NCBI RefSeq assembly: GCF_019431455.1 | Contig: NZ_JAHYSR010000015.1 | Span: 1 to 64,000, forward strand | Direction of reading: 5' to 3' | Length of the DNA stretch: 64,000 nucleotides | Source of the DNA: Paracoccus bogoriensis | Lineage (GTDB): Bacteria; Pseudomonadota; Alphaproteobacteria; Rhodobacterales; Rhodobacteraceae | Shown: piece by piece, positions 5,661 to 39,104 of the stretch | Layout: every line of letters begins with the position of its first letter | Position numbering within the stretch: position 1 is the first letter of the stretch | The notes under the pieces: generated by a model | Database searches by the model: none | What the model was told of the DNA's origin: nothing | What the model saw: the letters and a program-made list of their open reading frames with translations, nothing else | Made by a program: the position numbers and the translations under genes

Positions 5661-6608
5661 TCAGTCGCGAGGAGCGGCGGCGCGGCGGAGGCGGTCGTTG
5701 ATCGCGCGGCCCAGGCCGTGATCGGGGATCGGGGCGACCGAGATCGGGCGCCCGATTGCATCGGCGCGGCGTAGCAGGTCGAAGAGGCGGGCGGCGGCCT
5801 CGGTCAGGTCTCCGCTGGCAGAAAGGCTGAGCGGGCCGGGCGTGCCGAAAGCCAGGTGCGTCTCGTCCGGGCGGGGTTCCGCGTTCAGCCGCAGGGGCGC
5901 CCTGGGCGCGTAGTGGCTGGTCAGCTGGCCGGGCGCGTTCGGGGCCGAGGGGTCGGCCTCGTGCCGGGCGAGGGACTGGCCGAGCGCGGCCTGGATCGTC
6001 TCGGCGGGGATGCCGCCGGGCCGCAGCAGGGTGGCGCGCCCCTCGGGCCAGCCGATGATCGTGGATTCGAGACCCACCGGGCAGGGGCCGCCATCGAGCA
6101 CCGCGGCGATGCGACCGTCGAGGCCGGTGTCGCGGTCCAGCACGTGATCCGCCGTGGTCGGGCTGATCCGGCCGGAGGCATTGGCCGAGGGCGCCGCGAG
6201 CGGCAGGCCCGAGGCGCGCAGCAGCGCCTGCGCGACGGGATGGGCGGGCACGCGCAGTCCGATCGTGTCCAGCCCCGCCGTCACCAGCGAGGCGATGCCC
6301 GCATCCGCGCGCAGCGGCAGCACCATCGTCAGCGGCCCGGGCCAGAAGGCGTAGGCCAAAGTCAGCGCCTGCGCTGGCAGAGTCGCAATGGCCCGGGCTG
6401 CGGCAAGGTCAGGAATGTGGACGATCAGAGGATTGAAGCTGGGCCTGCCCTTGGCGTGATAGATGCGCGCCACTGCCCCGCCGTCGCGGGCATTGGCGGC
6501 AAGGCCATAGACGGTCTCGGTCGGGATCGCCACGCACTCGCCCCGCGTCAGCAGGGCGGCCGCCTGGGCAATGCCGTCATCGTCGGGGATCAGGCGGAGG
6601 GTCTGCAT
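5661..6608 (-). CDS. L-threonylcarbamoyladenylate synthase (Sua5/TsaC type)
   Basis: The enzyme makes threonylcarbamoyl-AMP from threonine, bicarbonate and ATP, the first step of t6A modification of ANN-decoding tRNAs in the cytoplasm. The 315 residues contain the YrdC domain (GECVAIPTETVYGLAANARD, AKGRPSFNPLIVHI, FWPGPLTMVLP, PLAAPSANASGRISPTTADH), followed by a C-terminal Sua5 domain starting near GQLTSHYAPRAPL. The full length matches Sua5 rather than the shorter TsaC. The frame stays open much further upstream opposite the acyl-CoA dehydrogenase gene, but the ATG at 6608 gives the family start MQTLRLIPDD. Confidence 0.92.
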   Translation of the reverse strand: MQTLRLIPDDDGIAQAAALLTRGECVAIPTETVYGLAANARDGGAVARIYHAKGRPSFNPLIVHIPDLAAARAIATLPAQALTLAYAFWPGPLTMVLPLRADAGIASLVTAGLDTIGLRVPAHPVAQALLRASGLPLAAPSANASGRISPTTADHVLDRDTGLDGRIAAVLDGGPCPVGLESTIIGWPEGRATLLRPGGIPAETIQAALGQSLARHEADPSAPNAPGQLTSHYAPRAPLRLNAEPRPDETHLAFGTPGPLSLSASGDLTEAAARLFDLLRRADAIGRPISVAPIPDHGLGRAINDRLRRAAAPRD

Positions 6609-8414: not shown

Positions 8415-9430
8415 TCCGCAGCCCCTTTCCGGCGCCTCCCAATGAGGGCGCAGCCATCGCGGTCGCCCCCGGCATCCTGTGGATGCGGCTGCCCCTGCCG
8501 ATGGCGCTGGATCACGTGAACGTCTATGCGCTGGAAGATGCCGAGGGCTGGACCATCGTCGATACCGGCATGGACAGTCGCCGCACGCGCGCCATCTGGG
8601 AAAGCCTGCTGGCGGGACCGCTGGCCGGGCGGCCGGTCACGCGGGTCATCGGCACGCATCACCATCCCGACCATATCGGCCTTGCGGGCTGGTTCCTGGC
8701 GCGCGGCGCGCGGCTGGCCATGAGCCGCACGGCATGGCTGATGGCGCGGATGCTGGTGCTGGACGAACAGGACCGCCCCACGCCCGAGGCGCTGGATTTC
8801 TGGCGCCGCGCCGGGATGCCCTCTGAGTTGCTCGCCCGGCGGGCGCGCGAACGGCCCTTCAACTTTGCCGATATCGTGCATCCGTTGCCCCCCGGCTATG
8901 CCCGCCTGACCGAGGGGCAGGTGCTGACCATCGGCGCGCGGCGCTGGCGGGTGGCGATGGGGCATGGCCATGCGCCCTGCCATGTCACGCTGTGGTCGCA
9001 GGACGATGCGGTCGTGATCGGGGGCGATCAGCTTCTGCCGGGCATCTCGCCCAATCTGGGGGTCTATCCGACCGAGCCCGAGGCCGACCCGGTCGGCGAA
9101 TGGCTGGAAAGCTGCGCGAGGCTGGCGACCCTTGCGCGCGACGACCAGTTGGTGCTGCCGGGCCACAAGCTGCCCTTCACCGGTCTGCCCTTTCGGCTGT
9201 CGCAACTGATCCAGAATCATCATGCGGCTCTGGACCGTCTGCGTGCCGCCCTGGCCGAGGCGCCTCGCAGCGCGGTGGATTGCTTCGACATCCTCTTTCG
9301 TCGCGGCATCGCCGAATCGGAATTCGGGCTGGCCCTGGTCGAGGCGGTGGCGCATCTGAACCACCTGGCCCGCGCCGAAGTGATCCGCCCCGTGGCCGAA
9401 AGCGACGGCGCGGTGCTGTGGGGGGCGTGA
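8411..9430 (+). CDS. MBL-fold metallo-hydrolase
   Basis: This 339-residue protein is a metallo-beta-lactamase-fold hydrolase. The zinc-binding motif THHHPDHIG is near residue 80, with the preceding strand [20 protein letters not shown]. Later metal ligands are supplied by [17 protein letters not shown] and [16 protein letters not shown], and an HKLPFTG segment follows. The C-terminal helical region matches the group often annotated as glyoxalase-II-like or thioesterase-like. The GTG start overlaps the TGA of the acyl-CoA dehydrogenase (GTGA), so the two are translationally coupled and may act on the same CoA-linked pathway. The substrate is not known. Confidence 0.85.
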
Positions 9431-9485
9431 CAGCTTTGTCCCGATGGTCTATCGGAAACCGAACGCTTGCAGGAGGACGACAGAC

Positions 9486-9638
9486 ATGGCCGATCTCGAC
9501 AACAAACCCGGCGCGACGCAGGGCACGATGGACCTGACCGAACACAAGAAAACCTTTGCCGGGTTTATCAAGGGTGTGACCTGGGTAACGATCCTGTCGC
9601 TGGTCGTGCTGATCTTCCTGGCTCTGGCGAATTCCTGA
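9486..9638 (+). CDS. ctaH: aa3-type cytochrome c oxidase subunit IV
   Basis: This is a 50-residue one-span membrane protein of cytochrome aa3 oxidase, as in Paracoccus denitrificans. The sequence has a short polar N-terminus, the conserved [20 protein letters not shown], then the rest of the membrane helix ending LALANS, the signature C-terminus of this family. It packs beside subunits I and III, and its role in catalysis is dispensable in the model species. GCAGGAGG lies 9-16 bases upstream of the ATG, a strong ribosome-binding site. The main oxidase genes are not in the window. Confidence 0.9.
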
Positions 9639-9651
9639 GGCGCGGGGTCTC

Positions 9652-10293
9652 ATGAAACGTCGTGCCTTTCTGGCCGCCGCGCTGCCGGCGGGGCTGGCCG
9701 CTTGCGGTGTCGAACATGTCTGGGCGACCGATGAGGAGGTGCGCCGCGCGCGCTATGTCTCGGATCAGCCGCCCTCGATCACGCTGCTGACCGTTATCGG
9801 CATCCCGCGCGGCGAAGGGGGACATTCGGCGCTGATGTTCAATGGCAGTCAGCGCGTGATCTATGATCCGGCGGGAAGCTGGCACCATCCACGCATCCCT
9901 GAACGCGGCGATGTTCTCTACGGGATCACCGACAATTTTCGGGCATTCTACATTGATTACCACGCCCGCTCGACCTATTGGGTGGCCGAGGATACGGTGC
10001 TGGTCCCGCGCGAGATTGCCGACCTGGGCATCCGCAGCGCCGAACAGAACGGCCCCGGGCGCCGCAGCTTCTGCGCGATCGAATGTGGCCGGGTGCTGCG
10101 TCGTGTCCCGGGCTTCGAGGGCGCACCGGTCGGCTTTTCGCCGCTGCGCCTGCGCCGGTGGTTCCTGACCCTGCCCAATGTCCAGACGCGCCGTCACTAT
10201 GACGGCGACCCGGCGAACAATCACGACGTGCTGATGCGCCAGCAGGACGGCACGATCATCGGCGCGATGGGTCCGGTTCAGGGCAGGATGTAA
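9652..10293 (+). CDS. Lipoprotein of unknown function, possible permuted papain-like fold
   Basis: This 213-residue protein starts MKRRAFLAAALPAGLAACGV, a lipoprotein signal with lipobox LAAC. I do not recognise a named family beyond conserved Rhodobacteraceae proteins. The mature part has GEGGHSALMFNGSQRVIYDP early and RRSFCAIECGRVLRRVPGFE later. A His followed by a downstream Cys is the order seen in circularly permuted NlpC/P60 and YiiX-like cysteine hydrolases, so a thiol hydrolase or acyltransferase activity is possible but unproven. It ends with a 16-bp overlap of the convergent azlD gene. It follows the oxidase subunit by 13 bp and may be co-transcribed. Confidence 0.6.
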   Translation: MKRRAFLAAALPAGLAACGVEHVWATDEEVRRARYVSDQPPSITLLTVIGIPRGEGGHSALMFNGSQRVIYDPAGSWHHPRIPERGDVLYGITDNFRAFYIDYHARSTYWVAEDTVLVPREIADLGIRSAEQNGPGRRSFCAIECGRVLRRVPGFEGAPVGFSPLRLRRWFLTLPNVQTRRHYDGDPANNHDVLMRQQDGTIIGAMGPVQGRM

Positions 10294-10604
10294 AGCAGCC
10301 CGAACAGCGTTCCGCCGCCTGCAAGAATGGCCAGCATGACGTTGCGGGTCAGCACCCCCACCCCCAGGGTCGCCAGGGCAGCAGCCATGCGGGCGGGGTC
10401 GGGCTGGCCGTCGGTCGCGGCGGGCCAGACGACCAGCGGCGCGACCAGAGCGGGCAGCACCGCAACCGGCGTGTAGCGCAGAAGCCGCAGCACCCAGCCT
10501 GCCATCACGCGCCCGCCAAGCGCGCCCAGAAAGGACCAGCGGATCAGATAGGTTCCCACCCCCAGAAGGATGATGACCGTCCAGATGTCCTGACCCGAGG
10601 TCAT
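10278..10604 (-). CDS. azlD: AzlD-family branched-chain amino acid exporter small subunit
   Basis: This is a 108-residue hydrophobic protein with about four membrane helices. The family core GVGTYLIRWSFLGALGGRVM and the LLRYTPVAVLPALVAPLVVW segment are clear. It pairs with AzlC to export branched-chain or other amino acids from the cytoplasm. The ATG at 10604 overlaps the azlC stop (ATGA type), so the subunits are translationally coupled. Its 3' end overlaps the convergent lipoprotein gene. Confidence 0.88.
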   Translation of the reverse strand: MTSGQDIWTVIILLGVGTYLIRWSFLGALGGRVMAGWVLRLLRYTPVAVLPALVAPLVVWPAATDGQPDPARMAAALATLGVGVLTRNVMLAILAGGGTLFGLLYILP

Positions 10605-11377
10605 GTGCGGCTCCTTTCGGTCAAGGTCTCGACAAGGGCGCCCGCGGCCATGCCAAGCGGCGCCGCGATCAGCAGCCCCAGCCCCGAGGGCAGCCCCGCC
10701 AGCAGCAGCGCGGCCAGCACCGCCACGAAGCAGGCCGCCAGATGCGCCGCCGTCCGCAGCATCGGCGCGATCATCGCGATGAAGGTGATGGGCATGGCGA
10801 AATCCAGCGCGATCTCTTCGGGGATGGCCTGGCCGATCGTCGCACCCAGCCAGCTTCCGATCATCCAGGGCAGGCAGAGGACGACCGCCGTTCCTGCAAA
10901 ATAGGCCAGACGCTGCTGCATCGAAAGGCCCGGATGGCGTTCGTAATGCTGGATGGCCAGCGCATAGGTCTGGTCGATCAGCACATAGGCCAGACCCGCC
11001 CGCTGCGCCGGGCTGGCCTGGCCCAGCCACGGCACCAGAGAGGCCGAATACATCGCCATCCGCAGGTTGACCGCCAATCCCGACAGGATCACGACGATGA
11101 CCGGGGCATTGTCCGACAGGAGCTGCACGGCGGTGAATTGCGACGCGCCTGCAAGGACCAGCACGGAAAAGCCCATGACCTGCGCCACGTCCATCCCGGC
11201 CTCCAGCGCGACCACACCGAACAGGATCGCGAAGGGCACGATCACGATCAGGAACGGCAGGGATTGCACGACCCCGTGCCAGAAGGCCTGACGCGGGCTG
11301 CGCGCCAGCGCCCGGGCCGAGACCGCGTCATGGGCGGCCTGCCGATGGCGCGGCCGTGGTTCGGGAGAAGGGGACAT
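10601..11377 (-). CDS. azlC: AzlC-family branched-chain amino acid exporter large subunit
   Basis: AzlC is the larger subunit of the AzlCD exporter. The protein is about 258 residues, with a charged N-terminal tail (about 28 residues) and then helices beginning FWHGVVQSLPFLIVIVPFAI. Family features include GFSVLVLAGASQFTAVQLLS, LAVNLRMAMYSASLVPWLGQ and YVLIDQTYALAI. I chose the ATG at 11377, preceded by AGCAGG; in-frame starts at 11401 and 11437 would add 8 or 20 residues. An inverted repeat GCAACG-TT-CGTTGC at 11403-11416 lies just upstream and may be an operator. Substrate range is not determined by the sequence. Confidence 0.85.
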   Translation of the reverse strand: MSPSPEPRPRHRQAAHDAVSARALARSPRQAFWHGVVQSLPFLIVIVPFAILFGVVALEAGMDVAQVMGFSVLVLAGASQFTAVQLLSDNAPVIVVILSGLAVNLRMAMYSASLVPWLGQASPAQRAGLAYVLIDQTYALAIQHYERHPGLSMQQRLAYFAGTAVVLCLPWMIGSWLGATIGQAIPEEIALDFAMPITFIAMIAPMLRTAAHLAACFVAVLAALLLAGLPSGLGLLIAAPLGMAAGALVETLTERSRT

Positions 11378-11402
11378 CCTGCTTTCGCCTGTCAGCGTCA
11401 TC

Positions 11403-11416
11403 GCAACGTTCGTTGC
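11403..11416. promoter_or_regulatory. Inverted repeat upstream of azlCD
   Basis: GCAACG (11403-11408), TT, CGTTGC (11411-11416) is a perfect 6-bp inverted repeat 26-39 bases upstream of the chosen azlC start. AzlCD operons are often controlled by a linked Lrp-type regulator, but none is adjacent here. An operator role is inference only. Confidence 0.35.
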
Positions 11417-11446
11417 ACGATGCGCAAGACTTGGCAAGCCGCCGGA

Positions 11447-12379
11447 TCAGCCGAAGCTGCCCGTCGCCCGCCCCAGCAGCATGAAGGCCCGTCCCGAACG
11501 GCTGTCGCCCAGCACTGCGATCTGCAAATCGTCCAGTTCTGGCACCAGCCGGGTCAGAAGCCCATCGAAATGGCGCAGGAAATGGTGGGCAGCGTCGCGG
11601 AACACCTCGTCCTCGCGCAGCATGGACGCGGCGGTCTGCAAGGCGTCGGGATCGTCGATCCCGCCAAGGGCGGCGACGGCACTGCCGCGTTGGCCCTCGG
11701 CAAAGCGGCGCCAGGCGGCAGCGGGGGGCGGAGCAGGGGGCAGCATGTCCATATAGATGTCACGCCCCGCCAGCAGCGTGACCACATCCTGCGCGGCGCG
11801 AATGACGCGGGAATTGTCCTGATCGCGCAACGCGGCGCGCAGGGCCTCGATTGCCTCGTGGTCGTCGGGGCCGTCAGGAAAGTTCAACGCCCGGATCAGC
11901 GTGCCTGCATCGACCGGCTGCGAGGGGGGCGCCTCAAAGCGCATCGCCGCCTGTCGCTGGTCTCCGGCCGGGCGCGGGCGGGGCCGCGGTTGCGCCTGTG
12001 TGGGTTCGGGCCGCGCCTCGGGCTGCGCTTTGGCCCGCGCCTCGGGCTGTGCTTCGGGCTGCGGCTGGGGTGTGGGCGCGCCGCGCAGGTCGGGCCGAAT
12101 CGCATCAAGTTGGCGGCGCAGTTCCGCGGCCTCGGCACGCAGCAGGGCCAGCGCGCGCGCCATCGCAACGCCCATCCAGACCAACACCAGGGGCAGCACG
12201 ACACCAAAGGCCGAAACCAGCCGCGTCACACCGCCCCGTTGCGCTTCGGCCGGAGGTCCGAGCAGCCAGAACAGCAGAACCAGCAGCAGCCAGACACCCG
12301 ACAGCGCAAGGCCCAGTCCGGTCAGCGCATCGCGGCGCGCAAGGCTGGCAAGTCTGGCGGCCAGGGTCATGCGGGTCAC
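11447..12379 (-). CDS. Two-span membrane protein of unknown function
   Basis: This 310-residue protein is not one I can name. Two membrane helices lie near the N-terminus ([19 protein letters not shown] and the segment ending [18 protein letters not shown]), followed by a short coiled coil ([16 protein letters not shown]). A low-complexity linker of Pro/Glu/Ala/Gln repeats spans about residues 95-140, and a helical C-terminal domain with [20 protein letters not shown] and [20 protein letters not shown] follows. It is probably anchored in the inner membrane with the C-terminal domain in the cytoplasm. Its start overlaps the greA stop by 4 bp, so it is co-transcribed with greA. Confidence 0.65.
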
Positions 12380-37189: not shown

Positions 37190-37741
37190 ATGTTCTACAA
37201 GGATGACCGCCTGGCGATCTTCATAGATGGGGCAAACCTCTATGCAGCATCCAAGGCTCTTGGCTTCGACATTGATTACAAGCTCTTGCGACAGGAGTTC
37301 GACCGACGTGGCAAGCTGATGCGCGCCTATTACTACACTGCCCTGATCGAGGGTGAGGAATATTCCCCCATCCGGCCCCTGGTGGACTGGCTGCATTACA
37401 ACGGCTATTGCGTCGTCACCAAGCCGGCCCGCGAATACACGGACGCGCTTGGGCGCCGCAAGGTCAAGGGCAATATGGATATCGAACTGGCCGTGACCGC
37501 GATGGAACTGGCGCCGCGGCTGGATCATGCCGTGCTGTTTTCCGGCGACGGCGACTTTCGGCCGCTGGTCGAGGCGTTGCAGCGCCAGGGCGTGCGGGTC
37601 TCGGTCTGTTCGACCATCCGCAGCCAGCCGCCAATGATCGCAGACGACCTGCGCCGCCAGGCCGACAACTTCATCGAACTGGATGCGCTGCGCGAGATCA
37701 TCGGCCGCCCCCCGCGCGAGACGGCCCCGCAAGAGGGCTGA
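37190..37741 (+). CDS. NYN-domain (LabA/DUF88-like) protein
   Basis: This 183-residue protein is a PIN-like NYN domain, a fold often acting as a metal-dependent ribonuclease. The acidic motifs are present: RLAIFIDGANLYAASKALGF at the start, KVKGNMDIELAVTAMELAPR in the middle, and DHAVLFSGDGDFRPLVEALQ near residue 120. Proteins of this LabA-like type are widespread in Rhodobacteraceae and no specific RNA target is established here. It is divergent from folK and ends 53 bp before the convergent tRNA-Leu gene, sharing a strong terminator with it. Confidence 0.88.
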   Translation: MFYKDDRLAIFIDGANLYAASKALGFDIDYKLLRQEFDRRGKLMRAYYYTALIEGEEYSPIRPLVDWLHYNGYCVVTKPAREYTDALGRRKVKGNMDIELAVTAMELAPRLDHAVLFSGDGDFRPLVEALQRQGVRVSVCSTIRSQPPMIADDLRRQADNFIELDALREIIGRPPRETAPQEG

Positions 37742-37793: not shown

Positions 37794-38105
37794 TGGTGCG
37801 GACGGCGGGACTCGAACCCGCACTTCCTTGCGGAAAACAGATTTTCATACCACTTCGGCTTTCGCCGCCGGGTGCTGTGCGACCCGTTCGTGGTCTGGAC
37901 TATCCCTTCGCCATGGCCCGAAGGCTTTAGGCGCCGCCCGTCTAGTCTCTACACCTTCCCCGTTTCCGGGGCTTGGCTCGGGATCGGCACGGGCGCAAGC
38001 GCCCAGAGCTTTCCCCGAATTTGAGCGGTTCTGCACCGGGGGTTTCCCCGACCGGGCACTCCAATCGTCAAAGTCTGCTGCGTCTACCGGTTTCGCCACG
38101 TCCGC
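37794..38105 (-). tRNA. tRNA-Leu(UAA), interrupted by a group I intron
   Basis: The 5' exon is 38105-38071 (35 nt) and the 3' exon is 37845-37794 (52 nt, with an encoded CCA). Acceptor strands GCGGACG and CGTCCGC pair perfectly. The D arm is GCG...CGC with AAACCGGTAGA as loop. The anticodon stem pairs GCAGA with TCTGT across the splice junction, and the loop reads CTT from the 5' exon and AAAA from the 3' exon, giving UAA with the intron after U34. A long variable arm (TTCC-GCAA-GGAA) and the T arm GCGGGTTCGAGTCCCGC make it a class II leucine tRNA of 87 nt when spliced. It lies 75 bp beyond the arginase gene. Confidence 0.93.
37846..38070 (-). ncRNA. Group I intron (IC3-like) in the tRNA-Leu(UAA) anticodon loop
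   Basis: This 225-nt intron has the conserved core of self-splicing group I introns. On the minus strand it contains a P-like AAATTCGGGGAAA, the R element GAGACTAGACGGG (complement of 37937-37949) and the S element GGATAGTCC (complement of 37897-37905), which pair to form P7. The 5' exon end ACTT can pair with GAGT about 11 nt into the intron, giving the required U-G wobble at the splice site. The intron ends in G at 37846. Location after U34 and the motif order match cyanobacterial and plastid tRNA-Leu introns. There is no ORF inside. Confidence 0.9.
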
Positions 38106-38180: not shown

Positions 38181-39104
38181 TCAGCCAAAGCTGCGGGTCG
38201 GGCGGTCAAAGACCTTGCGGCCCATCAGGCTGCCCACCAGATCGACCATCAGCTTGGCGGTGCGGCCACGCTCGTCCAGAAAGGGGTTCAGCTCGACCAG
38301 ATCCAGCGAGGTGACAAGCCCGGATTCATGCAGCAATTCCATGACCAGATGCGCCTCGCGGAAGGTCGCGCCGCCGGGCACGGTCGTTCCGACCGCCGGC
38401 GCGATCGAGGGGTCCAGGAAATCCACATCCAGGCTGACATGCAAGAGCCCGCCCGCCGCGCGCACCCGGTCCAGAAAGGCGCGCAGCGGCGCGGTGATGC
38501 CGTGCTCGTCCAGGACGCGCATGTCGTTCACGGTAATCTCGGTCGGCTGCATCGCGGCCAGCTCGGCCGGGTCCACGCTGCGGATGCCGAACATGCAGAT
38601 GTTCTCGCCCGGTATGGGGGTGGGAAAGGGCGGGAACGGATCGAAGCCGGGCAAGCCGTGGGCATAGGCCATGGGCGTTCCGTGCAGATTGCCCGATGTG
38701 GTCGTCTCCACTGTGTGGAAATCGCTGTGCGCGTCCAGCCAGATCACGAAAAGCGGCCTGTTGGCGCGCGCCGCGTGCCGGGCAACGCCGGTTAGCGTTC
38801 CCATGGCCAGAGCGTGATCGCCGCCCATGATGATCGGCATACCCGTGGCCATCGCGTCCTCGGTTGCCTGGGCCAGCGCCCTGGTCCAGGCGATCACTTC
38901 GGGCAGGTGATGGACGGCAGGATTGGCGCAGGTCTCGGTGCCCGGCGGGAGGGGGGCAACGTCGCCGCGATCCTCGACCTGATGGCCAAGTGCGGTCAGA
39001 GTTCCGGCAAGGCCCGCCACGCGGTAGGCGGCGGGCCCCATGAGGCAGCCGGGGCGGCGCTGGCCTTCATCGACGGGGGCGCCGATCAGGATGCAATGGG
39101 TCAT
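38181..39104 (-). CDS. Arginase
   Basis: Arginase hydrolyses arginine to ornithine and urea using two manganese ions. The 307 residues hold all metal motifs: MPIIMGGDHALAMGTLTGVA near residue 90, FVIWLDAHSDFHTVETTTSG near 120, and LLHVSLDVDFLDPSIAPAVG near 225. The start MTHCILIGAPVDEGQRRPGC is also typical. Length fits the family. It is monocistronic, between the TonB receptor gene and the tRNA. With argD and argF nearby it touches arginine metabolism in the opposite direction. Confidence 0.92.
   Translation of the reverse strand: MTHCILIGAPVDEGQRRPGCLMGPAAYRVAGLAGTLTALGHQVEDRGDVAPLPPGTETCANPAVHHLPEVIAWTRALAQATEDAMATGMPIIMGGDHALAMGTLTGVARHAARANRPLFVIWLDAHSDFHTVETTTSGNLHGTPMAYAHGLPGFDPFPPFPTPIPGENICMFGIRSVDPAELAAMQPTEITVNDMRVLDEHGITAPLRAFLDRVRAAGGLLHVSLDVDFLDPSIAPAVGTTVPGGATFREAHLVMELLHESGLVTSLDLVELNPFLDERGRTAKLMVDLVGSLMGRKVFDRPTRSFG

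Follow-up and report, generated by a model that had tools for sequence, protein, structure and literature searches.

A group I intron splits tRNA-Leu(UAA) in Paracoccus bogoriensis and in the replacement tRNA genes of integrative conjugative elements

The stretch of DNA analysed here (64,000 nucleotides of the Paracoccus bogoriensis genome, hereafter the window) harbors on its minus strand a split tRNA-Leu(UAA) gene that occupies positions 38105-37794 (Table 1). Its two exons, GCGGACGTGGCGAAACCGGTAGACGCAGCAGACTT and AAAATCTGTTTTCCGCAAGGAAGTGCGGGTTCGAGTCCCGCCGTCCGCACCA, form an 87-nt class II tRNA-Leu(UAA) with CCA once joined, and the insert that separates them, located exactly between U34 and A35, ends in G. 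An earlier note, made from the letters of the window alone, had placed the split gene at the same coordinates, had read its 225-nt insert between U34 and A35, ending in G, as a group I intron of tRNA-Leu(UAA) and had proposed that an internal guide (GAGT) pairs with the exon end through a U-G wobble. These readings held.

Table 1. Positions in the window of the split tRNA-Leu(UAA) gene, the elements of its intron and the neighbouring genes.
Feature	Position	Strand	Supporting evidence or remark
tRNA-Leu(UAA) 5' exon, 35 nt, ends ...GACTT (U34)	38071..38105	-	same exon type in 25/125 Paracoccus species
Group I intron, 225 nt, between U34 and A35, final base G	37846..38070	-	Rfam RF00028, covariation, uninterrupted alleles L060/L061
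tRNA-Leu(UAA) 3' exon, 52 nt, CCA encoded	37794..37845	-	
Internal guide GAGT	38058..38061	-	pairs with exon end ACTT (38074-38071); U-G at the splice site
P2 with GAAA tetraloop	38036..38055	-	all six pairs show compensatory changes
P3, 5' strand	38023..38028	-	partner 37939-37934; CG to UA swaps in 17 rows
P7, 5' strand (GACTA)	37943..37947	-	partner 37902-37898; 100% paired; AU to GC in 10 rows
P9 region with GAAA L9	37850..37893	-	P1-P9 covariation alignment
Arginase/agmatinase-family gene, upstream of the tRNA	38181..39104	-	PF00491; marks the native tRNA-Leu(UAA) locus in Paracoccus by synteny
NYN-domain gene, downstream, convergent	37190..37741	+	PF01936; conserved neighbour in intron-bearing Paracoccus by synteny

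The insert is a real group I intron, as established by a match to the Rfam model, a covarying P1-P9 structure and the existence of uninterrupted alleles with the same joint, which are found in Rhodobacteraceae (L060, L061). The whole of Rfam RF00028 (Intron_gpI) aligned to positions 37883-38076 of the minus strand (42 bits, E 1.2e-8), the sole match of this model in the 3.0-Mb genome. The score lies below the gathering score of 50 bits, which is a curation threshold and not a biological feature; relatives of this intron class reach up to 76 bits. The P1-P9 model of 62 pairs, in which P7 forms a pseudoknot, was drawn up by hand from the sequence and scored against 40 aligned relatives, 39 of them distinct. 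With the P3/P7 pseudoknot included, 96.4% of the cells were paired and two-sided changes were present at 37 of the 62 pairs. The covariation score was 0.282 as compared to 0.110 in shuffles, none of 500 column shuffles came near it, and sliding the pairing partners by one to three columns destroyed the signal. The conserved core P3-P8 with its P3/P7 pseudoknot is present in the window intron, and both the U-G pair at the 5' splice site and the terminal G are invariant in all 39 distinct rows. The folding energy of the intron RNA by itself is not unusual (z -1.1).

Several traits of the IC3 type are visible, i.e., a short intron, GAAA loops in P2 and L9 and a site in the anticodon loop, with no IC3-specific model behind this reading. 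No homing endonuclease is encoded in the intron: 225 nt are too short, and the listed reading frames that cross it continue through the exons. Cyanobacterial and plastid tRNA-Leu(UAA) introns share the host tRNA, which PMC4033280 also gives, and the U34/A35 site, and are short ribozymes without ORF. The lineage of the window differs from the cyanobacterial and plastid ones in being alphaproteobacterial and in occurring also on the ends of integrative conjugative elements (ICEs) and on resistance plasmids. It belongs to the same class as the alphaproteobacterial tRNA-Arg(CCU) introns (Agrobacterium; Bartonella BbgpI, PMC7717549), its sister group in our tree, but these reside in another tRNA and are inserted after position 36 rather than 34. 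From its intact core we infer that the window intron very probably self-splices by two guanosine-started transesterifications; there are no splicing data. For the related Bartonella intron in tRNA-Arg(CCU), splicing has been shown both in vitro and in vivo (PMC7717549). Standard annotation misses the split tRNA gene; with default settings ARAGORN does not report it, and with introns allowed it mis-assigns the gene as Ser.

The tRNA genes of the genome were listed with Rfam RF00005 and with ARAGORN on individual loci. Because the remaining tRNA-Leu genes are UAG, CAG, CAA and GAG only, the window gene is the only Leu(UAA) detected; with an assembly of 97 contigs, another UAA gene is not entirely ruled out. 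The codon UUA accounts for 3 of 15,459 codons in the 36 likely genes of the window. That splicing would be essential if no other UAA tRNA existed, as had been suggested earlier, is plausible and unproven.

Within the genus, the split gene was recovered in 25 of 125 species, mostly beside the same arginase-family and NYN-domain genes. Other Paracoccus possess an unsplit tRNA-Leu(UAA) with exons clearly different from those of the split allele; in the two cases examined, this arginase-family gene lies about 2 kb upstream of it. A second tRNA-Leu copy of intron-bearing Paracoccus was considered as an unsplit UAA gene and rejected, being Leu(CAA). As a separate observation, divergent intron-bearing tRNA-Leu(UAA)-like genes, three of them without an encoded CCA, are found in Paracoccus G689, G774, G736, G737 and G764 (L275-L279); their mobility is not supported, the genes checked near two of them looking like core chromosome.

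The implied rarity of such introns in alphaproteobacteria, where that of tRNA-Arg(CCU) was held to be the best known, has to be corrected, given the many Leu(UAA), Arg(CCU), Thr(GGU), Arg(UCU) and other hosts encountered. Full-length split Leu(UAA) genes are present in 21 of 298 Rhodobacteraceae genomes, and in seven further genomes of this family an intron of that lineage interrupts Arg(CCU), Thr(GGU) or Arg(UCU). The intron core pattern was found at no fewer than 119 loci of GTDB genomes, mostly in Alphaproteobacteria and also in Acidobacteria, Betaproteobacteria, Actinobacteria and a cyanobacterium; the host at one Fischerella locus (L166) appears to be an Arg-type tRNA. Overall, the same intron clade is hosted by Leu(UAA), Arg(CCU), Thr, Lys, Arg(UCU) and Ile tRNAs of many phyla; at some loci the host tRNA and splice sites were read from printed sequence and not by script. 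The core was also seen in tRNA-Lys(UUU) of Microbacterium, Tsukamurella and a MAG (L110, L111, L175), two of which are actinobacteria. Among viral contigs of IMG/VR (L425-L504 and others), at least 120 stretches contain the intron core, and 31 of the first 120 resolve as tRNA-Leu(UAA); a 2014 review placed all phage introns in protein-coding genes.

In a tree of 139 rows, the window intron joins those of Rhodobacteraceae within a Leu(UAA) clade whose other members come from Hyphomicrobiales, Caulobacteraceae and a Novosphingobium MAG, and whose sister group is formed by the Arg(CCU) introns. A second Leu(UAA) intron lineage, also present in Rhodobacteraceae, is located elsewhere in the tree. 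The bootstraps were not fully converged and deep branches are therefore rough; no cyanobacterial Leu(UAA) introns were included. The tree contradicts a simple descent of split Leu(UAA). The earlier note had left the choice between ancient and lateral origin undecided; for the spread of the allele's lineage, the evidence now clearly favours lateral transfer, partly aboard integrative elements.

Such elements are ICEs that are inserted into the native tRNA-Leu(UAA) at its anticodon loop, thereby splitting the gene, and that carry a complete intron-split tRNA-Leu(UAA) at their left end. A link to ICEs or to resistance plasmids could not have been shown from the letters of the window. About 190-220 nt upstream of the split gene, a tRNA-Leu(UAA) of native type is present as a broken 5' half in Paracoccus (G700, G800 and G776), Enterovirga, Novosphingobium, Mesorhizobium and the Bradyrhizobiaceae MAG AGun1; the Paracoccus halves have the sequence of the tRNA-Leu(UAA) that is unsplit elsewhere in the genus. 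Both broken native halves are visible in Enterovirga, where the complete replacement gene stands at the left end and where, about 58 kb away at the right end, CTTAAAATCCCTCGGGCC...CCGTCCGCACCA is the missing native 3' half, adjoined by a 471-aa tyrosine integrase. The same layout, with both ends seen, extends over 34.6 kb in the Bradyrhizobiaceae chromosome AGun1, whose integrase (477 aa) is 63% identical to that of Enterovirga; the integrase and both ends were examined there and the transfer genes were not scanned. In both genomes, joining the broken halves gives an intact tRNA-Leu(UAA), from which the integration core was deduced to be the anticodon-loop sequence CTTAAAA.

Paracoccus G800 and Enterovirga, which belong to different orders, have in common an island of about 54 kb with 95-98% identity. 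The identity begins exactly at the broken native 5' half, the preceding sequence does not align, and the shared stretch encodes trb/tra (T4SS) genes, a coupling protein, a relaxase, ParA and kdp cargo. All ICE features, i.e., integrase, T4SS, coupling protein, relaxase and two att ends, are met for this Enterovirga/G800 element, and a recent cross-order transfer of the split gene is traced to an ICE. Excision and conjugative transfer themselves are inferred from sequence alone, the near-identity across orders being indirect support. The right end in G800 is hidden by a run of N, either masked or an assembly gap (57,002-97,081 of the tile, G800:C1 ~1,768,000-1,808,000, 40 kb), so that both element ends were seen in only two genomes; right ends were searched for and not found in G700, G776, Novosphingobium and Mesorhizobium. 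A broken native half was scored at 8 of the 106 intron loci with enough upstream sequence. Repeats of the TAGGTGCA type, found both within the left spacer and close to the right end, are inferred to be likely arm sites. These elements resemble known tRNA-targeting ICEs and islands in their tyrosine integrase beside an att site, tRNA target, replacement tRNA, T4SS and relaxase, but differ in that the replacement is a complete gene split by an intron of self-splicing type inside the integration core.

The intron of the replacement tRNA-Leu(UAA) separates CTT from AAAA and cuts the core in two; from this interruption we infer that it shields the replacement from the integrase. In this view, the ICE would break the host tRNA-Leu(UAA) at the anticodon loop and supply a split replacement; the intron would interrupt the integrase core in DNA, so that the replacement would not itself be a target, and splicing at the RNA level would restore a working tRNA. 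In a left-end search, the Leu(UAA) replacements were intron-split in six of six cases (G700, G800, G776; L393, L395, L405), a figure weakened by the choice of query, which came from an element that itself bears the intron. Sister elements in tRNA-Leu(CAA) (L348, L349, L396-L398) exhibit a broken native half and a complete unsplit replacement, whose loop reads TTCAAAA versus CTCAAAA in the target and is mutated in the core. Neither class of replacement has an intact continuous core. Unsplit alleles with the exons of the replacement were seen six times (L402-404, L407, L410, L417), none of them near a broken native half. In another tRNA, an integrase of the same family abuts the 3' half of a native tRNA-Lys(CUU) (L376; G812:C12, ~8800-11600), and an intron-split tRNA-Lys(CUU) lies 2.5 kb away on the strand opposite to this integrase.

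The explanation that we consider likely as a whole is that of a laterally spread split allele, travelling partly as the replacement tRNA of ICEs, with an intron that shields the core; splicing and shielding are inferred parts of it. A bolder reading, toward which the balance tips only slightly in the absence of splicing or integrase data, is that ICEs domesticated a group I intron as a shield against self-integration. If true, it would explain the spread of an endonuclease-less intron among tRNA genes and its presence on aac(3)-II plasmids, and would offer a concrete, testable function for a selfish ribozyme. It would also provide a bacterial case for tRNA introns guarding against integration. 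According to a hypothesis of Randau and Soll (as cited in PMC4390854 and PMC4090602), archaeal tRNA genes are guarded from integration by their introns; the present case is alike in that the intron disrupts attB in the anticodon loop, and unlike the archaeal host case in being bacterial, of group I and carried by the element itself. Against a need for the intron, the anticodon stem of the replacement differs from the native one and the Leu(CAA) sister elements manage without an intron; the intron may thus be sufficient for protection and yet not necessary.

The window copy itself has no broken half beside it and no element genes in its flanks. Its arginase-family neighbour also flanks an ICE-occupied tRNA-Leu(UAA) locus in Paracoccus, and at this locus G776 presents a decayed element that retains cargo, the broken 5' half and what is left of an integrase next to tRNA-Thr(CGT), which is the neighbour at the empty site in G721. 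Based on this shared neighbour and the decayed element of G776, the simplest reading is an old ICE insertion in the window lineage, whose element would since have been lost, leaving the shielded allele alone at the native locus. This history is inferred, and a simple allele replacement is possible instead.

Among rival explanations, the foremost, though rather unlikely, is an ordinary tRNA intron that moves by rare reverse splicing, homing or recombination of the locus, is inherited vertically within Paracoccus, and hitch-hikes without function at ICE ends. The same clade occurs in many tRNA hosts and phyla without a visible element, and the locus is syntenic in most intron-bearing Paracoccus species, in agreement with this view. 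However, 225 nt cannot fit a homing endonuclease, exon and intron move together, and the recent cross-order transfer was traced to an ICE; moreover, the Leu(UAA) replacements at ICE ends are all split, whereas the Leu(CAA) ones have a changed loop. Host defence is a similarly unlikely rival, according to which hosts kept the split allele to block elements targeting tRNA-Leu(UAA), and not because elements carry it. In its favour, a fifth of the Paracoccus species surveyed have the allele, a genus-wide left-end search found the split gene beside a native 5' half only in the ICE-bearing G700, G800 and G776, and many intron loci show no element remains; against it, the ICE end itself physically includes the split gene in several orders. 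Both ideas become compatible once the element is lost. A dead tRNA whose insert is never removed, UUA being read another way, would suit the great rarity of this codon but is very unlikely, as the intron helices fully covary, exon pairing is conserved and no other UAA gene was found in the genome.

The element-carried allele extends beyond alphaproteobacterial chromosomes. The split tRNA was detected on 1,266 of 72,556 plasmids and in 635 of 5,426 complete E. coli genomes, i.e., about one in eight of the latter holds an unannotated intron-split tRNA, with a gentamicin-resistance gene adjacent in the records opened; no RNA is annotated at the split tRNA in the listed plasmid and E. coli matches. 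In the opened plasmids, the CTTAAAA core, the spacer and the split tRNA adjoin tmrB and aac(3)-II; in L062-L065, for instance, the unannotated gene with ICE left-end sequence is found at ~6001-6302. As aac(3)-II is present on 2,340 plasmids, up to about half of these may carry the ICE-end unit, the co-occurrence having been checked in opened records only. The nearest chromosomal relative of the plasmid copy is that of Enterovirga (95% over the gene; tree grouping 100/83), suggesting that an alphaproteobacterial ICE end had a part in the module's history. The mature plasmid tRNA is identical to those of Paracoccus G700 and Enterovirga, 98.8% identical to that of AGun1 and only 73-84% identical to uninterrupted Paracoccus and Rhodobacteraceae alleles. 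An alphaproteobacterial ICE is a likely vehicle of the aac(3)-II module at some stage; in no sampled alphaproteobacterium was aac(3)-II beside a split tRNA. A direct origin of the plasmid module from Rhodobacteraceae is weakened by this absence and by the grouping of the plasmid copy with Enterovirga.

The integrase of plasmid pS44-1 showed no homology to ORFs near chromosomal split tRNAs. Group I introns and tmrB are not mentioned together in the literature searched, most subscription journals being outside its scope. Finally, Paracoccus G023 harbors a chromosomal tmrB-aac(3) pair (L228/L231, G023:C12:582589-583917) that has no tRNA near it, adjoins type I restriction-modification genes and shares 70% amino-acid identity with the plasmid pair.
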